A stretch of 64,000 bases of DNA, taken from Anthracocystis setariae. Lineage: Eukaryota; Basidiomycota; Ustilaginomycetes; Ustilaginales; Ustilaginaceae. Location: the NCBI GenBank assembly GCA_928724745.1, contig CAKMXJ010000010.1:682001-746000 (forward strand), given 5' to 3'. The notes beneath the pieces are model-generated. The model was given only the letters and a program-made list of their open reading frames with translations, searched no databases and was not told the origin of the DNA. Positions 8,900-20,420 of the stretch are shown here, piece by piece; position 1 is the first letter of the stretch; each line of letters starts with the position of its first letter. The position numbers and the translations under genes are program-made.

Positions 8900-9390
8900 A
8901 AGTTCAGCGAGCTAGCTAGCTAGCTAGCTAGCTAGCTAGCTTGCACCACATCTCCCATCTTCCATCTCCCATCCATCGTGTACTATGCCTTTCTGTCTCT
9001 TTTCTGGACTAGTTAGCATTGCAATCATCGTATAGACGTCTCTTTCTGACTTTCCCTTTTCTCTGTGTGTTGCGAGTACTCACCGCCTTATACAAGCCAG
9101 CTTAGGGCCGACCTTTGATAAGCTGGGTCAATATTTTCGGCTCGCGTCTGTGCCAAACGTACTGTATCGGCAGTGACCATGGTTTTGTGCCGCTCGGCTA
9201 AAAGCAATTACCGCAGGAAAAAGAAAGAGACGTCTTTGGATGTGTTTCGGCGTGGTTGGAACCCCGCAGCAGACGTTTCACTCGGGCACCGCTTTGGGAA
9301 CGACTAATTGACTGGTTTCTGTGGAACATAGACTTCTTCCTATCCCTTGTCTCTACGGCGGGCGCAGCACAAGATAGTCGTTGGGATACA
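8900..9390. other. Intergenic, same-strand spacer
   Basis: Pyrimidine-rich 3' flank of the dehydrogenase followed by the 5' region of the DUF1308-LCCL gene. Apart from the GCTA array and a GTACTGTA motif at about 9159 nothing is recognisable. The ORF frame extends upstream of 9391 to a TTG at 9256, but without an ATG. Confidence 0.5.
8911..8941. repeat. (GCTA)n tandem array, self-complementary
   Basis: Nearly eight GCTA units beginning 11 nt after the stop of the alcohol dehydrogenase. The unit array AGCTAGCT is its own reverse complement, so the RNA or DNA can fold on itself; it probably lies in the 3' UTR. Confidence 0.9.
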
Positions 9391-12300
9391 ATGTCACCGC
9401 CCATCATTCCAGCTTCGCGAATGCGCGACGGTCTTCAAGTCGTCCACGCTTCCATCGACGACTTTGCCACCACCTACCGCTCCTGGCTCACACTAGCTCC
9501 AGCTTACAGCTACGGCCCCTCGTTCACATCCACTTCCACTGCCACACCTTCAGCTTCCGCTTCAGCTTCAGAGTCGACTTACCAACCCAACGCCGAGACG
9601 CTCGCTAGAGCCCATTGTCCTATCTCCGGTCCAAGGTGGCACGAACACCGACAACGTCTCACCGCCTCCACTTCGATCAAAGGTTTGACGGTGTTAAGGA
9701 GTCAGGTCGAAGCCGAACTCGTCGCCCTCGAACGATTAGCTGCCGAGAGGGGTAGCTGGGAGGAACCACATCCGTATTCCAACGGCACACACCATATCCG
9801 CCTGTGGGAGGAGATCCTGTACGTTGCGTTCACGTTCGGTCCGGTTACGTCGATACAGGACCGATTCGCGTTCAGCTTGTCAGCAGCTCTACGAAGGAGG
9901 AACAAGATGCGCAAGCCCAAGGGAGAGAATATCAACAGTCAGAGTGTCAAGGTGGATGTGGTCTCGCAAAATGGAGATAGGTGGACCAAGTTGTATATCG
10001 TCAAGCCCGAGAAGTTGCGGCAGGAGTTTCGAGAGGCGGAGAGTTATATGGTGGACGAGTTGGATTCCAGTTCTGCTTCGGATGACGAGGATCTAGACTT
10101 GCAGGAGAATGGAGAAAACTTCCACGAACACCAACATACCGCGCAGTGCTCGGGAGATCAACTCGCTTTCGACGTGGCTGCGCGAAAGTGTTCGCTCACC
10201 AAACTGATTCACGAGCTTCGTGCCGCTGCCGATACAGAGGCGAGAGCAAGGGTGCAACGTTCCGAAGTATCCGGACGCAACATCGCCATCGTGCCCATTC
10301 ACGTCGAGATCGTCGTCACGCGCATGCAACTCCAAACCCCCTCGCTCCCACTTCCTTCGGCTTCCGAGAAAGGCTACCAAGCGACGTCGGCCGAATTCTA
10401 CCAGCTGCCCGAATGGGATCGATTCAACCACCGTCTTGCTGCCATCGCCGCCGAGGCACGTCGGTATAATGTCAACATGGTCTTTGGATACCGATCTCTC
10501 CCAGCCAGTCTATTGGACGGCGTCCAGCCGCCCAGCGCTGCACTGATCAGCGAGTCCGAGCCGGTCAAGCCTATGGGGTTGCCCAGCATCCCTTCCGCCC
10601 CGCCCAAGCCGCGGTGGCGTACCACTCGCAAGATCAACCTCGACGTCACCGCCATGATCGCGCTTGTCAGCGACACCACGCATGGCATCTTCAGCGAGGA
10701 CGAGAGCTCAGCGTTGGACGAGTCCAAACGCCATCCCAAGGTGGACGATGGCGAGCAGGGGTCTGGTGAAAGCTTCCAGCATCACTTTCGGACGTTTTCG
10801 ATTCGTAAAGAGGCGCTTGAAGCGAGAGCTGCCGAATTGTCGCTTCAGGTAGATCAACAGGACGAAGCTTCGCGTGCGCTCGACATCGCCGCAGCCAAAG
10901 AGGGGCGAGCGCTGGCGATCCAGCTGGAACGTGAAATGACCATGGAATCGCTCTTCGACGCCATCCTCTCGCCCATCCAAGCCGACGGCTCGCCAGTCGA
11001 GCTCTTCGCCACCGTTGGTGCGTTTGATCGACTTCGTCGCGTCAGTTCCACCGTGGGTGGGCCCAACGAAAAGCGTCGCGTCAAGGCGCTCCTTGGCGAT
11101 GTCGGTGCTGATGCGCAAGATTTCTGGACTCACTCCAAGTGGGCTGGTCCACAACACGAAGCGTTGCGCAAGTGTCTCGTCCTCCCCGTTCAGCCGCTGC
11201 CGGATTTGCGACCGGGCGGGTTCGAATCGCTCGACGCACTCAAAACGGTGTACCCGGATTTGGCAAGGGCGCATTTCATCTCGCACATGGTCGACACGCT
11301 CGAATCGTGCCTCACCCAACTGTGGGGAACCGACTGGCGCGACATCTGTCAAGACCTGCCTCGAAGCAAGTACAAGAAGCTGCGTCAGAGTACAGTGCAT
11401 CAAGCAGGTGGGCAGACGTATACCACGCTAAGGTCGATCCATGCCTGTGCGCGTTACGGCATGACTACGCTCACCAGCAATATGGATAGTATTCAGTGGC
11501 TGCTCAAGGAGATGAGTCGCAGACCGTACTCAGCACAGACCAAGAGGATTTTGCAAGATGCTCAAGTCCAGGCCGACGTAGAGGGGGCAATGGAAGCGGA
11601 GAATTTCACTTGTTGCTTTATTGTATTGCATCCGCGCTCGTTGTCGGAACAGATGAGGGTGACGACGAAAGCGCCCCGATGGCGCGAGGTTTTGGACGGG
11701 TATCCGGGTGGATTGGGAGCGGGTGAGGGTAAGTGCGGTGGCGAGGTGCAGGGTTATACGATCGATGACGGTGGTATTGCTGCAGAGCGTATAACGTCTT
11801 CGGCGGGGATTGCGTACTCGGTGGATCCAATCGCACTGACGAGACAGCAGGATCAGATGGGTGGACAAGTGAATCTGCTCGACTCGTCGCGCTCAGAAAT
11901 CCCAGCGCACCAAGATGGCATCAAGAACCCCACCACGCCAATGCAACCCATGTACTTGCTCGACGATTCTTCCCGTCCCACACTAACACCATCATCGTCA
12001 GCGGGGCGGGTTCGTTCGCGCGCACGCAAATTCTGGTTCGGACCCACACCTCCCACCACCCTGACACTTCGACACCCTCGTTGGTGGCCGTTCACCCACC
12101 TCGAACGGCCATGGCTCCGTCTGACCAACCCAATCGCGTACAAACCGCCCACCTCTCCCCCCACCGTGCACTCGTACTTGGACCAAACCACTACGCCGCT
12201 CACCCCGGGCGAACTGTGGTGGCAGAGCGTCAAAGCGGACGTGAAGCGAAACCGCCTGCACTGGCCTGCGCTCTGTCTGGTGTACATGGGCTGGATCTTG

Positions 12301-13884
12301 GGCTTCAGCTACCTCGCCAAATCGCTGTGGTACCAATCCACGATCGTCGGCATCGACGGCGTCTCTCGCCAACCCTCGTTCCTAACCTGCACCGCGACGT
12401 ACTGGCTTCGAAACGCCCAGTGCGGCCTCGACGGTGACGACTGCCAACCGTTCTACACGCCCGCCAACCAAGTGGGCCAACCCTTCCGTTGCCCCGCGGG
12501 CTGTCTCGATACCACGCTGCTCAATCCACGTGCGGTGGGCGACGAGCTGATCAACTACCAACCGCTCGTGATCGGTGGTGCCGACACCAACGCCACCTAC
12601 CGTGCCGATTCGTTCGTCTGCGCCGCTGCGATCCACGCCGGTGTGGTCGACAACACCAAAGGCGGCTGCGGCTCACTGCGTCTGACAGGCGCATACACGG
12701 ACTTTGTCGGAAACCACCGCAACGGCATCACTTCGATCGGATTCAATTCAACCTTCCCGATAAGCTACAGGTTCGAAGCGACCCAAGCGTCGGGCAGCTG
12801 CACCGACCGACGGTGGCAAGGCTACATACTCAACGCAGTGCTGTCGGCGTTGGTGGGCTTTGTGCTGCGCCCGAAACGCATCGTGTGGTTCTGGACGCTA
12901 GCCTGCGTAGGCTTCTGGCACATCTTCCTGATCTCGGAGCCGCGCGACTATCCACCTCCGATTGGCAAGGGGATCGGCGACTTGCTGCCGTTCCTGTTCG
13001 TGTGTTATGCGATCTGGCGATTGACGTTCCGGTTCGTGTGGCCGGCGTTTGGGCACATGCCGGTGGAGTCGACGTTCTGGACGCTCGCGTTCTGGTGGCT
13101 CGGCGTGCTTCTCAACGTCGTGTTCGGCAAAGTGCCGCTGCAGAGGTTGGTCGCCAGAGACATCGCACAGCAGCCGGGCAGTGTGGTGGCGCTGATCATC
13201 CTGGTCGGCGTGGTGCTGGTGATCGCGGTCAACCAAGTGCGCGTGATGAGCAGCACGGGCTACCTGCCCAAATACCTGTCGATGTACATCGTCGGCGGTG
13301 TGTTGGTTGGGCTAGCTGCTGCGGTGCCCGGCGAGACGCTCAGGTTGCATCACTACATTATCGCGCTGGTGTTGCTGCCGGCGTGTGCGTTCCCGACGCG
13401 GCTGTGTTTGGTGTACATTGCGTTTCTGTTGGGCATGTTTACCAACGGCGTGTCGAGGTGGTCGTTCGACGGGTTGATCCAGGACAACAGCGTTGTGCAG
13501 GGAGATGCTACGGGGAGTACGGGTTTGCCGACGTTCAATACGACCAACACCACGTTCGCCGCAGCGAACGGAGTGATCGCATGGAACCCGATCCCGCACG
13601 ACCTGGTCGGAAGCTGGGACGGCTTCCAACTGCTCATCGACGACGTACTGCGGTACGAAGGTTCGTCGCTGTCGTACAATCTGTCGGGTTTGCCCGAGGT
13701 GTATGCGCTTGAGCGGCAGAGCACCAACCAGAGCTCGATGCCGAGCAATGCCACCATCCGAGGTGGCGACCACTACGTGCGCTTGGCGTTCTCGTCGCAG
13801 GGGAGTCCCGGTGATTTCACCATGGCGGCAGTGGCAGATGTAGTGAGCGGCAAGTGGATAGATGCGCCTCCTGGTGCGACGTGA
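9391..13884 (+). CDS. DUF1308 (C7orf25/UPF0415-like) domain fused to LCCL-domain multi-spanning membrane protein
   Basis: One uninterrupted frame encodes 1497 residues; the first ATG is at 9391. The N-terminal ~770 residues match the DUF1308/C7orf25 family: a VDVV...GDRWTKLYIVKP block near residue 188, the PIN-like INLDVTAMIALVSDTTHG block near 413, a GGPNEKRR block near 556, and the family's C-terminal TLTSN and CCFIVLHPRSLSEQ blocks near 685 and 745. A low-complexity linker follows (about 770-870). From about 870 the sequence is an LCCL protein: GP-x-PP and proline-rich entry, TM at about 959-980, an LCCL domain at about 1032-1110 (RCPAGCLD, FVCAAAIHAG, RNGITSIGF), then about seven TM helices (1144-1370) and a lumenal N-glycosylation-rich tail (several NxS/T). 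The two halves are normally unrelated families. Either this is a genuine fusion or two adjacent genes share an open frame; a possible LCCL-only start is the ATG at 11941. A GTAAGT at 11729 in the linker could be a donor. Confidence 0.8.
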   Translation: MSPPIIPASRMRDGLQVVHASIDDFATTYRSWLTLAPAYSYGPSFTSTSTATPSASASASESTYQPNAETLARAHCPISGPRWHEHRQRLTASTSIKGLTVLRSQVEAELVALERLAAERGSWEEPHPYSNGTHHIRLWEEILYVAFTFGPVTSIQDRFAFSLSAALRRRNKMRKPKGENINSQSVKVDVVSQNGDRWTKLYIVKPEKLRQEFREAESYMVDELDSSSASDDEDLDLQENGENFHEHQHTAQCSGDQLAFDVAARKCSLTKLIHELRAAADTEARARVQRSEVSGRNIAIVPIHVEIVVTRMQLQTPSLPLPSASEKGYQATSAEFYQLPEWDRFNHRLAAIAAEARRYNVNMVFGYRSLPASLLDGVQPPSAALISESEPVKPMGLPSIPSAPPKPRWRTTRKINLDVTAMIALVSDTTHGIFSEDESSALDESKRHPKVDDGEQGSGESFQHHFRTFSIRKEALEARAAELSLQVDQQDEASRALDIAAAKEGRALAIQLEREMTMESLFDAILSPIQADGSPVELFATVGAFDRLRRVSSTVGGPNEKRRVKALLGDVGADAQDFWTHSKWAGPQHEALRKCLVLPVQPLPDLRPGGFESLDALKTVYPDLARAHFISHMVDTLESCLTQLWGTDWRDICQDLPRSKYKKLRQSTVHQAGGQTYTTLRSIHACARYGMTTLTSNMDSIQWLLKEMSRRPYSAQTKRILQDAQVQADVEGAMEAENFTCCFIVLHPRSLSEQMRVTTKAPRWREVLDGYPGGLGAGEGKCGGEVQGYTIDDGGIAAERITSSAGIAYSVDPIALTRQQDQMGGQVNLLDSSRSEIPAHQDGIKNPTTPMQPMYLLDDSSRPTLTPSSSAGRVRSRARKFWFGPTPPTTLTLRHPRWWPFTHLERPWLRLTNPIAYKPPTSPPTVHSYLDQTTTPLTPGELWWQSVKADVKRNRLHWPALCLVYMGWILGFSYLAKSLWYQSTIVGIDGVSRQPSFLTCTATYWLRNAQCGLDGDDCQPFYTPANQVGQPFRCPAGCLDTTLLNPRAVGDELINYQPLVIGGADTNATYRADSFVCAAAIHAGVVDNTKGGCGSLRLTGAYTDFVGNHRNGITSIGFNSTFPISYRFEATQASGSCTDRRWQGYILNAVLSALVGFVLRPKRIVWFWTLACVGFWHIFLISEPRDYPPPIGKGIGDLLPFLFVCYAIWRLTFRFVWPAFGHMPVESTFWTLAFWWLGVLLNVVFGKVPLQRLVARDIAQQPGSVVALIILVGVVLVIAVNQVRVMSSTGYLPKYLSMYIVGGVLVGLAAAVPGETLRLHHYIIALVLLPACAFPTRLCLVYIAFLLGMFTNGVSRWSFDGLIQDNSVVQGDATGSTGLPTFNTTNTTFAAANGVIAWNPIPHDLVGSWDGFQLLIDDVLRYEGSSLSYNLSGLPEVYALERQSTNQSSMPSNATIRGGDHYVRLAFSSQGSPGDFTMAAVADVVSGKWIDAPPGAT

Positions 13885-14235: not shown

Positions 14236-14758
14236 CGTACTTTCCGTCCGTCGTGGTGGTTAGGTGGGATGGATGGTGGTGGTGGTGGTGGTGGGAAGGA
14301 GCGATGAGTGAAAAGAAGTGGGACAAGGAAGAAAGATTTCGGAAGCTCTCGGCCGCGCGCAAAACCACCCTTTTTTTTTTAGAGTTTTTTTGGATTTGTT
14401 ATAGTGGATGATCTCACAAGGACGATGCCGGCTCGGTATAGCGTTGAATGACAGCATAGGCTAACGTTTAGCGCCACCATCGGTGTACTAACTATTCGTA
14501 GTAGCCCTGGGAACCATTTCCTCGCTTTGCGTACGTCAATGGTTTTCGGTCGCACCATGCATATCGTATTGTATTGCATCAGGAGTCAGCGGGATGCGAT
14601 TCACTTCATGCATCGCCACTTGACTTGACGGTTTCGCTTTGCAGATCATATAATATAAACCTGTCTGTGTGTGTCTCTCTCTGGCGACAAAGATCACCCC
14701 TTCATCCGTCCGTCCAACCCTCGCCCTATCCCAACTCCCTGTTTCTACTCTGTCGAAG
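14236..14758. other. Divergent intergenic region
   Basis: Non-coding spacer between the 93-residue ORF and the oxidase pseudogene. It contains GGT-rich sequence near 14270-14291, a T run near 14372-14380 and the TATA-like box listed at 14654. Confidence 0.5.
14654..14659 (+). promoter_or_regulatory. TATA box of the oxidase pseudogene
   Basis: TATAAA within CATATAATATAAACC, 100 nt upstream of the ATG at 14759; the promoter looks intact although the gene is broken. Confidence 0.5.
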
Positions 14759-16134
14759 ATGGTGTTCAACCTCGTCGCTCAGGCCAGCTTGCTGGCGGTG
14801 ACTTTGTCCTCGATTTCGAGTGCATACCCTGTAATCACGTTCGGCGGGCGAAGTTCTCACAACCATCGAAACGTGTCTCGCCACCTCGGGCGGCACCCCC
14901 TCTCTCGTACGCTCAATCACCACACTACTCCACCCTAGCCTCGTCCTACAACCCGATCTTCAACTTGCAACCGCTCGTGATCGCGCTCCCAACCACAGCT
15001 GACCAAGTCGGCGACATCGTCAGGTGCGTCTCGTCGCAACAGGGGCGTTATAAACTGTCGCCCAAATCGGGCGGCCACTCGTACCACGCCTACTCGCTCG
15101 GTGGCCAGAACGGCAGTGTCGTTGTTGACCTTGGCCATTTCCAGCAGACTCCATGTGGATCGTGACGTCAAGACGGCTCGTGTGGGTGTCGGTGTTAGGC
15201 TCGGTTTGCTAGCGAGTGAGATTTGGGAACAGGGCGCGTTTGCGTTGCCGCATGGGACGTGTCCGATGGTAGGCGTCAGTGGCCACGCATTGGGTGGTGG
15301 GTTCGGCTTCCCCACTCGTGCGTGGGGGTTCCTAATGGACCGCATCGTAGAGATGCATATGATAGACCGCAATGGTACGGGACATCGTGTGGCCAGGGAT
15401 GAAAACCCCGGCCTATGGTGGGCACTACGCGTTGGTGGGAGTAAAAACTTCGGTATCGTGACCGAGTTCACCTTGGCAATCGTCGTTGCACCCAAGCTGA
15501 CGCTTAACTATGCGCATGAGGCTTTGATGCGGCGGTTCCACGACCTCGCCGGCATCCAATCGAATAGTAAGACCATCACGCCGTTCGACAAGTGGATCGA
15601 TTCGCTCATCAACATCAAGGGCGATCTCAACACTACGGGCAAAGCGGCAAGCGATCATGAACAGTTCTACGCCAAATCGCTCGTCCAACCGGAACAGGCC
15701 GTGTACGACTTGACCTCAGCACTGGCGCTGGTGAACAAGTTCAACGACTACGCAGGAATCCAGGGAACAGGCAACAGCATCTCGTTCGACTTGCTCGGCC
15801 CCAAAAACCGTACCCCGCCACACAAGCGCTGCCAGCCGCATTTAACGCACACCACGCCACCTTCATCAACCAATTCTACAGCTGGGGCTTCCCGGCCAAC
15901 ACCAACGCACAGGCACAGCGAGCCGTGTGAAACGCATTCGACGATCTCGTCACCACCGCCATGAACGCCAAGCCGGACGCCAACTGGGGTGCATATGTGA
16001 ATTACGTCGATGCGCGACTGCACAACTGGGCCAACATGTACTACGGCACCGCACTCGACAGGTTGAAGCGGTTGAAGACGAGATGGGATCCCGAGACGGT
16101 GTTCTGGTTCCCACAGGGTCTTTCGGAAGCGTAA
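14759..16134 (+). pseudogene. Secreted berberine-bridge-type FAD-linked oxidase, multiply frameshifted
   Basis: The family oxidises sugars, alcohols or alkaloids with bicovalently bound FAD. A signal peptide (about 14759-14830) opens in frame 2. An extra G near 14846 shifts the reading to frame 3 (GEVLTTIETCLATSGGTPSL). A further shift near 14910 gives frame 1, which carries the FAD-binding core with the flavin-linking histidine block SGGHSYHAYSLGG (about 15067-15108). A third shift near 15145 gives frame 2, with the second flavin-linking cysteine block HGTCPMVGVSGHALGGGFG (about 15250-15306) and the substrate domain. A fourth shift near 15812 leads to frame 1. There a TGA at 15928 replaces what is normally a tryptophan-like position, and the C-terminal BBE motif (WANMYYG, RWDPETVFWFPQ) follows to the TAA at 16132-16134. 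Four indels and one nonsense codon in 1.4 kb argue for real decay. No intron combination repairs them. Confidence 0.85.
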
Positions 16135-16973: not shown

Positions 16974-17540
16974 CTTGGTATGTGGAACGTGACTTGGCGA
17001 TAAGTTGAGTTGGTGGCAAGAAGAAACGAGCGAGGCGTCAGCAATGAGGGTGTGGATTCGCCTAAAGCATGTCTGTTAAGAGCTGCCAGTAGAAACCTCC
17101 GACGGCGGCATTGGAGCGTTCAATTTGGCCTTCTTATCTATAATCGCCGTCGCCGCCGCCGCCGCCGCCGCGTGGGGAAACAGTGCGCAATCTCGACCGA
17201 GCCTCCGAACCCGAAATCTCGCCCGTGTCTCCATCCGCTTTCGCGGCCAAATTCGACAGCTCATCCTTGCACCACCAGCGAGACTCAAAGGGGGAAAGCA
17301 ACGGGTTAACATTTCGGGAAAGTAGCAAGAAGAAGACGAGAGTATCAAGAGATCGTGGAATGACCATTACGACGAGGTTGCGAGTGGCTTTGGAGAGTCG
17401 TGGTCTCCCATACCTTGGGCTTGCACGGAAGCATGGTGACCACGATGACGACTGCGATATCGACCTCGACCTCGACTACGCGGAGAGGGAAGTACTAGGT
17501 AGTGCTCCAGAACGCCTGATCGTCGCGATCCAAGAGCCAG
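16974..17540. other. Intergenic with GCC repeat
   Basis: Upstream region of the DCG1-like gene. A GCC trinucleotide tract occupies about 17145-17172. An ORF-like stretch at 17183-17548 begins with GTG, has no recognisable domain and overlaps the end of the next gene, so it was not called. Confidence 0.5.
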
Positions 17541-20420
17541 CTACTTGATGATCGGTATCGGCAGCTCGCGCTTAGCAAGGTGTAGGGAATGGACGGCATT
17601 GGCGAAGCTTCGCTTGGAGATGTGTCCGGTTTGCGCAAGTGGCTGATTGATCAGACGCTTCGAAAAGTCGCTATCATCTGACGGCAGCTCCTTTTCGCCG
17701 TAGATCCCAAGCGCAACACCGGCATCTATGATACCGATGATGAGCAGTCCAGCTGCAATCGTAACAGCAGCGACCTTGGCATCGGTCTTCCACTGTCCAA
17801 CGCGCGAGTCCCACTCAGGATTGCCCATCGCTTGTGCGGCGCCTTCGACTTGCTCCTCCGTTAGCGGTGAGACACGACCAAGTCTTCGCTTGTTCAGACG
17901 TCCGTTTGGTGACAATGATCTGTTGATGAGATGGTTCTTCTGGCGCTGTTCATACTGTATCTCCCGTTTGATGGTGAGGCCGATGTCAGTCGCGGAAACG
18001 ATCACGGTTGTAGGGATGATGGCTACAGCTCCGAACAGAAGCGCCACGATGCCGACACTGCTTCCCAATTCTGCAAGGCGCTCTCGCAGCCTGGGACGGC
18101 GCAATATACATTGTGCTGCGGCTTCCACCTGTTCTTTGGTCAAGGGTACGATTGGAGCAGCTCGCTTGTAGAGTTGCCTGGTTTGCAGGTTTGGCTCTTC
18201 AAACCTGCGCTTTTCCCAGGGCTCGGAAAGCCTATGATGCAATTCGCTTCTTTGATTTTGGCTACTTTGCTGCTCGTGCTCCTTTGCACCTTCGACAAGT
18301 AGCCAGATGAGCCAAGTTACGACTCCAGCCATCATGCCGGTTGCACTTCCTGTCATGATCCTTTGCCAAATCCGGTTGCTCCTGGCAAATTCGAGCTGAT
18401 CCGCCTGTGCAGGAGGAATCTCAGGAACCGTCAGCTCAAACGTTGATGGTGACAACGGACGAACGGTGGGGCTGGAGCGTTTGTGTAAAGGCTCAAAGCC
18501 AACGGGGTAGGACTGGGTGCTCGCTTGATTGTGCCTGTTTCCGCGAAGCTGATCGTCGTCATCTTTATGTTGATGTTTCGCGAGCTCCCATGCACTGACA
18601 CCTGAGACGAGCCCGGCTGCTGCGATAGCCGTCAGTAGCAGCAGACTGGAACGAGAGCTTTGTGCAAGAGCTGGATCTTCGTGTGCAGCATCCATGATCT
18701 CCTGGCCCATCCTTGTACCGAACATTCTCTTGGACAATCGTCGAGAGTCGTGCAGTGAGAGGTGGCGTTTCTGCACCAAGGGTTCCTGCAAATCGAAAGG
18801 CTGCTTCAAGTCCCTCCTGTGCAGATCCGGCTGCTGAAGTTGACGATTCTTTTGCTTCTGCTTATTTACCCTAAAGATGGTGTAAGCAATAGCAAGAGGA
18901 GTCAAAAATGCAGCCCCAACGGCTAACTTTAGCAGAGCATCTCCCGAGCCGCCAGCTTCTAGAGTCTCGAGCGATTCCATGGCTGCATTCGACGACACTG
19001 GAGCCGACCGAGCGAACGGATCGATGGCCAAACCTGGGATAGCACCGCCCAGTGGCAAGGCTCGCTTCGAGAGAGGTTGCGGTTCGTCGCTGGAAGGATG
19101 ACGCTTGTCGAGCGCTGGTGCGTCCGTGGATGGACTCTGAGTGATAGGCTGGGACAGCTTGCGACTGATCACCGCAAATGGCTTTTCCTCGCGAGCTTGC
19201 TTCTTCTCATCGATCTTATGCTTGATGAAAGGGACCCCATAGACACCAGCAAAGATCGCGGCAGCACCAATCACCGAGCTAATGATCATGGGCTTGACGA
19301 TGCCCTTGCGAGATTCAACCGGGGGGATGTCGTCTTGGGACTGAGAAGCTACCTCAAGCGTCCTGGACGAATCAAGGGTCCTCGACGACTCAAGGGTCCT
19401 TGGCGGCTCAAGCGTTGCGGTGTGCTCAGTCTCGGCAGGGGCATGGGACAGAGCCTTTGGAGCGCTCTGATATGCTTCCCTCGCACCCATGAGTAGCCTC
19501 TCGATGATGTCGTCTCGGATCGCTCGCTTGGCACGAGGGTGAGGATTTGGCTTAAGCGAAGTCTGATCTCGACGTTGAAGGCTCGCACTTGGATACGAAG
19601 GAGTCCGATGAGCAGAGTCAGCGGCTGCGGTCTCCATTTCGGCCTCCTCCCGCGCATTTGACGCGGCAATCCCCTCGTTGATGGTCTGCATCTCGTCGTT
19701 ACTGTGCTTCATGTACGCGGCGATCAGCAGAGTCAAAGTGGCACTGACAGCGCCAGCTGCGATCGCCTTTGGATCTTTGTAGAGCGGAACCCTCTCTTTC
19801 TTGCCTTCGGCTGCCTCGACCTCATTCTTGACGCCACTACCAGCGTTTTGGACTTTGATGTTGGTGTGGAGAGGAGGTCGCTCGTAGAATCTGGGAGATA
19901 TGTTATCGCGATCGGCGTCGCTGGCGTAGCCAGCTTCGTCGCGGCCGAATTGGAAGCGCCTGAGCGGCCTCTGATGGATGATAGACTCGGAGGCATCTGG
20001 AGATTTGGCCTGAGGTCCCCTAGGTCCAGTCATGGCGGGATCTTGCTTTCCGACCAGACGAGTATTTTCTTCCCGGGCGGCGTCAATGGCAGACGAGCTG
20101 GAGCGACCGACACGAGATAGGAGTTTGGAGACTGATTCCGCCGCAGAAGCAAGCACTCGAACCCTCTATGGATCAATCAGAAGTCGCCATGAATATGGAG
20201 TCAGAGTACTAGACCTTCATGATAAATTCATACGAAGCAAGGAAGATCGCTGGAGATGACTTACACGTTTGACCTTTGGAGTTACAGAGCCAGCAGGTTC
20301 GGTCGATTTGAGAAAAGACTTTGTGCTGAGCTCGAGCTCAGTCTTTGCTTCGCGAAGTGGCTGACATGCCACGGCTGCGATCAGCATGTAGACAGCAATG
20401 AAGATGAGGAGGAACCGCAT
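17541..20420 (-). CDS. Secretory modular protein with repeated KR (Kex2-type) sites and about seven hydrophobic segments
   Basis: Two exons: 20265-20420 and 17541-20165, joined across a 99-nt intron (donor GTAAGT, branch CTGAC, acceptor TAG, phase 0). Product 926 residues. Exon 1 encodes a clear signal peptide (residues 1-19, ending AVAC) and a short linker ending in KR. The rest repeats one plan: a dibasic KR or RR site in an L/I-x-KR context, 30-60 polar residues, one hydrophobic stretch of about 20-25 residues (near 183, 345, 463, 560, 655, 755 and 850), then a charged tail leading to the next KR site. Two modules share a PLTxEQVExAAQ block. KR sites suggest Golgi Kex2 cleavage into several peptides, each carrying a membrane-spanning or amyloid-prone segment. 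The architecture recalls the Rep1 repellent precursor of Ustilago maydis, but I claim no homology. No enzymatic motif is visible. Confidence 0.75.

Follow-up and report, generated by a model that had tools for sequence, protein, structure and literature searches.

A putative Kex2-processed polyprotein of hydrophobic modules in Anthracocystis setariae

A two-exon gene in the genome of Anthracocystis setariae (21.47 Mb in 36 contigs) encodes a long protein in which KR dipeptides lie between hydrophobic segments, and it raises the question of whether this product is taken apart in the secretory pathway or stays whole in a membrane. The window that carries it, the whole 64,000-nucleotide stretch of DNA analysed here, had been annotated from the sequence alone, and that initial annotation left two readings side by side: a precursor of secreted, membrane-active or surface-coating peptides, or a poly-transmembrane protein with spurious KR sites. 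The reading to which we incline, with slightly better than even confidence, is that of a polyprotein cut by Kex2 into hydrophobic modules that associate with the surface or with membranes, in a variant of the layout of KEX2-processed repeat proteins (KEPs), Rep1 and Ece1.

Gene model

The gene occupies the minus strand in two exons (20420-20265 and 20165-17541) and its product has 926 aa, in agreement with the initial annotation, which had also placed a KR at the end of a spliced first exon (Table 1). Exon 1 has 52 codons and its last residues are ...KVKR. Codon-usage log-odds, from a model trained on nine window ORFs that themselves score 0.22-0.40 bits per codon, are +0.24 for exon 1 and +0.22 for exon 2 against -0.67 for the intron, so both exons appear to be coding; the other sense frames at the locus score -0.28 to -0.45, and the antisense frames 0.00 to -0.50. 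A spurious ORF is ruled out by this codon usage and by the lack of any other good frame. Alternative splice sites would leave the frame open as well (15 combinations); the choice made here has the consensus donor. The intron directly follows the KR with which the propeptide closes, and exon 1 therefore corresponds to a putative signal peptide plus propeptide. By inspection and hydropathy, the N-terminus resembles a cleavable signal peptide, MRFLLIFIAVYMLIAAVA followed by CQ, with LLIFIAVYMLIAAV as the h-region and a predicted cut between AVA and C.

Table 1. Features of the precursor gene, in window positions; residues are numbered along the full protein
Feature	Position	Strand	Remarks
Exon 1	20265..20420	-	putative signal peptide (about residues 1-18, by inspection) and hydrophilic propeptide (19-50), KR at end
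Intron	20166..20264	-	99 bases, GTAAGT...CCATAG, phase 0, immediately 3' of KR codons
Exon 2	17541..20165	-	874 codons plus stop; seven modules, C-terminal tail
Hydrophobic segment 1	19710..19766	-	residues 186-204; KD19
18-bp tandem repeat, 3.3 copies	19353..19412		module 2 region, upstream of segment 2; RTLESS/RTLDSS
Hydrophobic segment 2	19224..19292	-	residues 344-366; KD19
Predicted spacer peptide	19068..19100	-	11 residues (408-418), between two KR
Hydrophobic segment 3	18873..18938	-	residues 462-483; KD19
Predicted spacer peptide	18732..18764	-	11 residues (520-530)
Hydrophobic segment 4	18588..18650	-	residues 558-578; KD19
Hydrophobic segment 5	18294..18359	-	residues 655-676; KD19
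Predicted spacer peptide	18168..18206	-	13 residues (706-718)
PLTKEQVEAAAQ block	18111..18146	-	module 6, residues 726-737
Hydrophobic segment 6	17988..18068	-	residues 752-778; KD19
PLTEEQVEGAAQ block	17832..17867	-	module 7, residues 819-830
Hydrophobic segment 7	17697..17774	-	residues 850-875; KD19
Predicted spacer peptide	17616..17654	-	13 residues (890-902)
Predicted spacer peptide	17574..17609	-	12 residues (905-916)

KR sites, hydrophobic segments and modules

The 926 residues contain 14 KR where composition predicts 4.24, a number that none of 5,000 shuffles reaches, and 8 RR, so that the first count of about ten KR or RR sites was too low. The excess is specific to KR, because the other dibasics occur near or below expectation (RR 8 against 5.5, RK 2 against 4.2, KK 2 against 2.7), and three of the eight RR are simply the second half of KRR. 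The sequence context of the sites, which had also been singled out initially, holds up: P4 is hydrophobic (LIVFMWY) at 11 of 14 KR (binomial 8e-5), with nine aliphatic residues, seven of them Leu, and two aromatic ones, the remaining three being K, R and T. Among the 31 KR of 14 other window ORFs (9,455 aa) P4 is hydrophobic at 6 (Fisher 0.0005). A P4 preference of Kex2 for Leu or another aliphatic residue is stated in PMC8528282. Position P2' is likewise hydrophobic in 11 of the 14 (binomial 8e-5), against 12 of 31 in the other ORFs (Fisher 0.023); this departs from the processed Kex2 sites of Bader et al., for which PMC2515848 gives an over-representation of acidic or small residues at P1', P2' and P4'. 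At P6, P5, P3, P1', P3' and P4' no hydrophobic excess is significant, and RR sites lack the KR-type context (P4 hydrophobic at 4/8, P2' at 1/8).

A candidate enzyme is encoded in the same genome, where the P domain of Kex2-type proteases (PF01483, P_proprotein) has one match (E 3.7e-27), as expected for one Kex2. Both marks of a Kex2 substrate are thus found, KR sites whose P4 is hydrophobic and for the most part aliphatic, and an enzyme of the Kex2 type, and the KR-specific excess together with the P4 context makes an origin of the sites by chance unlikely. The KR at residue 785, which has Thr at P4 and comes shortly after segment 6, is quite possibly no Kex2 site.

Seven hydrophobic peaks follow the signal peptide, with KD19 of 1.62-2.46 and starts at 186, 345, 462, 559, 658, 756 and 855; at a threshold of 1.6, 2,000 shuffles give a mean of 0.37 peaks and a maximum of 3. 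Each segment is one continuous apolar stretch of 19-27 residues. The initial annotation was right about their number, and about their even spacing from segment 3 on only: peaks are 159, 117, 97, 99, 98 and 99 residues apart, and the linkers among the last five segments measure 78-80 residues. An in-silico digest at every KR, with RR uncut and the signal peptide removed after residue 18, gives 15 fragments, of which seven (64-212 residues) hold exactly one segment each, bearing out the claim of one hydrophobic segment per module. The eight without a segment comprise the propeptide (32 residues), one 24-mer, five spacers (11-13 residues each) and the C-terminus (8 residues).

Along exon 2, segments (T) and KR sites (K) follow each other as TKTKKTKKTKTKKTKKTKKK. 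This order contains seven T-to-K steps, against at most two in each of the 368 other ORFs in a sample of 369 ORFs, taken from stop to stop in six frames and with 150 codons or more (264 kb, the window plus 20 stretches of 10 kb), a sample that covers about 1.2% of the genome and in which many ORFs are not genes. Linker coverage alone is weak evidence and partly due to the number of sites, because 14 randomly placed sites occupy all eight linkers in 13% of trials.

Are the modules copies of one another? The PLTxEQVExAAQ block is common to modules 6 and 7, as first noticed. Plain shuffles put 10 of the 21 pairs of modules 1-7 at z above 2.5, mostly through shared hydropathy. Against shuffles that preserve the local profile, with the terminal KR removed, self-alignment of the modules gave a divided answer: similarity beyond hydropathy is strong for M6-M7 (score 75, z 9.7, 0/500 shuffles), and moderate for M3-M5 (3/500) and M2-M3 (10/500), while the remaining 18 pairs, which do not fall below 3% of shuffles, show little or none. 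The motif [LI]-x-[QE]-P-hydrophobic occurs in five copies in four linkers against 0.30 expected, a significance that is optimistic because the motif was chosen after inspection of the sequence. This motif and the likeness of M6 and M7 point to units made by duplication, and tandem duplication followed by divergence would be the natural reading, at least for modules 6 and 7. Inside module 2, the RTLESS/RTLDSS repeat is a possible site of length variation.

Predicted processing and membrane topology

From the gene model, the excess and context of the sites and the single segment of each long KR-bounded fragment, all computed results, we infer signal-peptide function, cleavage, release, secretion, final location and role along the following lines. 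The signal peptide would take the precursor into the ER, and in the late Golgi Kex2 would cleave after KR in the linkers between modules, with Kex1 trimming the KR. Cleavage would free seven separate fragments of about 64-212 residues, each with one apolar segment of 19-27 residues, probably a helix, flanked by polar or charged ends, and would release the short spacers too, which are hydrophilic and about 11-13 residues in length. The hydrophobic fragments would most likely reach the fungal surface or membranes, and act there by surface activity or membrane insertion. Against this precursor reading stand the P2' pattern, the three of 14 KR without a hydrophobic P4, the different context of the RR sites and the dissimilarity of most module pairs.

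What would distinguish a precursor from a membrane protein is the side on which the linkers lie. In an alternating topology, linkers 1, 3, 5 and 7 face one side and linkers 2, 4, 6 and 8 the other, and only one set meets Kex2. There are 6 KR in the first set and 8 in the second (expected 2.6 and 2.2), with a hydrophobic P4 at 4 and 7; the excess is borderline in the first (Poisson 0.049) and clear in the second (0.0018). From one segment to the next, the difference in flanking charge, N minus C, is +4, -2, -9, 0, +2, +3 and +2, without alternation. Since KR occur in both sets, a precursor fits better than an intact polytopic protein, and together with the non-alternating charges this argues for all linkers being lumenal, the excess in the first set being borderline. 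The initial suggestion of a secreted-peptide precursor thus gains from sites that look genuine, while release and activity enter it as predictions. Its main weakness is the membrane itself: the segments match typical transmembrane helices in hydrophobicity and should halt translocation, leaving some linkers cytosolic, so that an escape from membrane integration would have to be explained. AlphaFold models contain helices only and are too poor in quality to help, both for module 6 modelled alongside five sister modules (pLDDT 58, pTM 0.20) and for the exon-2 protein alone (pLDDT 40, pTM 0.26).

Could cleavage be confined to the lumenal side? A membrane protein of alternating topology, cut by Kex2 in its lumenal linkers only, would leave two-helix hairpins in the fungal membrane. 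This would suit both the strong hydrophobicity of the segments (KD19 up to 2.46) and KR sites that look real, present as they are in both linker classes, but the would-be cytosolic KR with the same P4 signature (4 or 7 sites, depending on the set) then lack explanation and the flank charges do not alternate, so that we regard it as improbable.

Still less credence goes to a conventional polytopic membrane protein that stays intact, with about seven spans and KR that arose by chance, the spurious-site alternative of the initial annotation. Seven transmembrane-type segments are what it predicts, the cleavage proposed above is a prediction and the KR excess is borderline in one linker class (Poisson 0.049). 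It is countered by 14 KR against 4.2 expected, by their P4 signature, by the Kex2-type P domain in the genome and by KR in both linker sets. A length of 78-80 residues, as in the linkers that separate the last five segments, is unusual between single helices, Pfam gives no family above cut-off, and in two multi-span ORFs of the sample 14 spans in one and 8 in the other go with 3 KR each. The least probable account takes the spacers for the products, in the manner of pheromone-type KEPs, and leaves to the hydrophobic modules only the part of propeptide or membrane tether: the five KR-bounded spacers do fall in the 9-24 aa class, given as the commonest in Dikarya except in yeast-like Basidiomycota, where the units are longer (PMC6339444), but by eye they share only a weak -LS/-IS/-LY end, unlike signalling KEPs, and the bulk of the protein would be waste.

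Known precursors, relatives and the locus

To return to the preferred reading, a Kex2-processed polyprotein, the precursor resembles known precursors of surface-coating or membrane-active fungal peptides in layout, and differs in having larger, membrane-type units. Rep1 and Hum3 of Ustilago maydis are likewise smut secretory precursors with a propeptide ending in KR and imperfect units with Kex2 sites between them (PMC4617103). According to the same source, Rep1 products are surface-active, and the amphipathic repeats measure 34-55 aa in Rep1 and 31-36 aa in Hum3, the last Rep1 product having 228 aa (PMC4617103). In contrast, the units here are of 64-212 aa and carry one continuous apolar segment; layout alone was compared. 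Amphipathic repeats of 34-55 aa, the Rep1 type, are not what the precursor contains, so that the initial comparison with Rep1 stands for layout and falls for unit size and amphipathic character.

Ece1 of Candida albicans, the candidalysin precursor, has 271 aa and eight peptide moieties; the A. setariae precursor is far longer. The two are alike in their Kex2-bounded, poorly conserved units, again on layout alone. One unit of Ece1 is a peptide with a hydrophobic N-terminal region (PMC2515848, PMC5784256, PMC7329392), and Ece1 is said to resemble Rep1 in precursor structure without sequence homology (PMC2515848). With KEPs the precursor shares at least four KR- or RR-bounded fragments, the number set by Le Marquer et al.; KR alone gives 15. 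Its putative signal peptide would be a further common feature. Of the similar repeated motif that both KEP surveys require between sites, it has a strong instance in M6-M7 only; its units are otherwise divergent, and each long one holds a transmembrane-type segment.

These differences bear on surveys. Le Marquer et al. dropped TMHMM membrane proteins and proteins with repeats on less than 15% of their length (PMC6339444), and Umemura used residue identity and 40-residue seeds to score tandem repeats (PMC7329392). With seven KD19 peaks above 1.6, the precursor would likely fail the non-membrane (TMHMM) filter for KEPs, and both pipelines would probably lose a protein of this kind. A more tentative and rather doubtful proposal is that fungal secretory polyproteins include a further, new class to which it belongs, in which single-helix membrane miniproteins are strung together and freed singly by Kex2, and which was overlooked so far because surveys drop transmembrane-type proteins or require well-conserved repeats. 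If the precursor reading itself is right, Kex2 polyproteins can contain modules that look like membrane helices, the question arises of how seven segments cross the translocon without fixed topology, the two KEP surveys, as far as PMC6339444 and PMC7329392 describe their filters, may have a blind spot, and mass spectrometry would have definite peptides to search for. In the open-licence literature searched, at the level of the titles and abstract openings listed, no description of such a layout in smuts was found; the 2008 U. maydis secretome paper may contain one, and PMC8528282 credits it with 15 repeat proteins, of which 8 are apparently Kex2-processed.

Relatives were sought at several levels. 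Pfam assigns the exon-2 protein to no family above cut-off, and gives it no hydrophobin domain (three matches, all sub-cut-off). A PDB sequence search yielded no relative, nor did viral contigs, where two pattern matches turned up; in its own genome, the whole exon-2 protein matches only itself. A weak second genome match of exon 1 (E 0.018, 33%, one internal stop) was judged from its score to be chance. In a collection of 5.8 billion proteins, no relative was found for the whole exon-2 protein at E <= 0.001 (7,997 candidates scored) or for exon-2 residues 660-874, equivalent to 712-926 of the full protein, at E <= 10 (7,995 candidates). This search draws at most 100 five-residue words and requires of candidates exact shared words and similar length, so that its result speaks against close orthologues and not against diverged ones; by our estimate, orthologues under roughly 50% identity may be missed.

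As a search control, the neighbouring Aip1 retrieved 917 proteins at E <= 0.001. Among the 120 matches listed, identity to full-length relatives is at most 87% (three at 86-87%), with Ustilago trichophora and U. loliicola at 85%, Sporisorium reilianum at 84% and U. hordei at 81%, and no U. maydis entry was noticed. The control indicates that proteins of several smuts are present in the collection and, Aip1 being conserved, is silent on sensitivity for fast-evolving proteins.

The surroundings look ordinary. At gathering thresholds, Rfam gives no family in the whole window, and six of the seven neighbouring ORFs scanned encode an LCCL-domain protein, an MFS transporter, an FAD-binding oxidase (two ORFs), an Asp/Glu racemase and an ABC ATPase, the seventh having only a sub-cut-off MBOAT match. 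The LCCL domain lies in a 1,560-codon ORF (9202-13881, plus strand). The FAD_binding_4 (FAD-linked oxidase) match at 14659-15961 on the plus strand is spread over two frames that overlap near 15.12-15.14 kb, which may mean a frame change, an assembly indel or a decaying gene. Nine consecutive CGC triplets lie at 17145-17171, in the interval that separates the racemase gene from the precursor gene.
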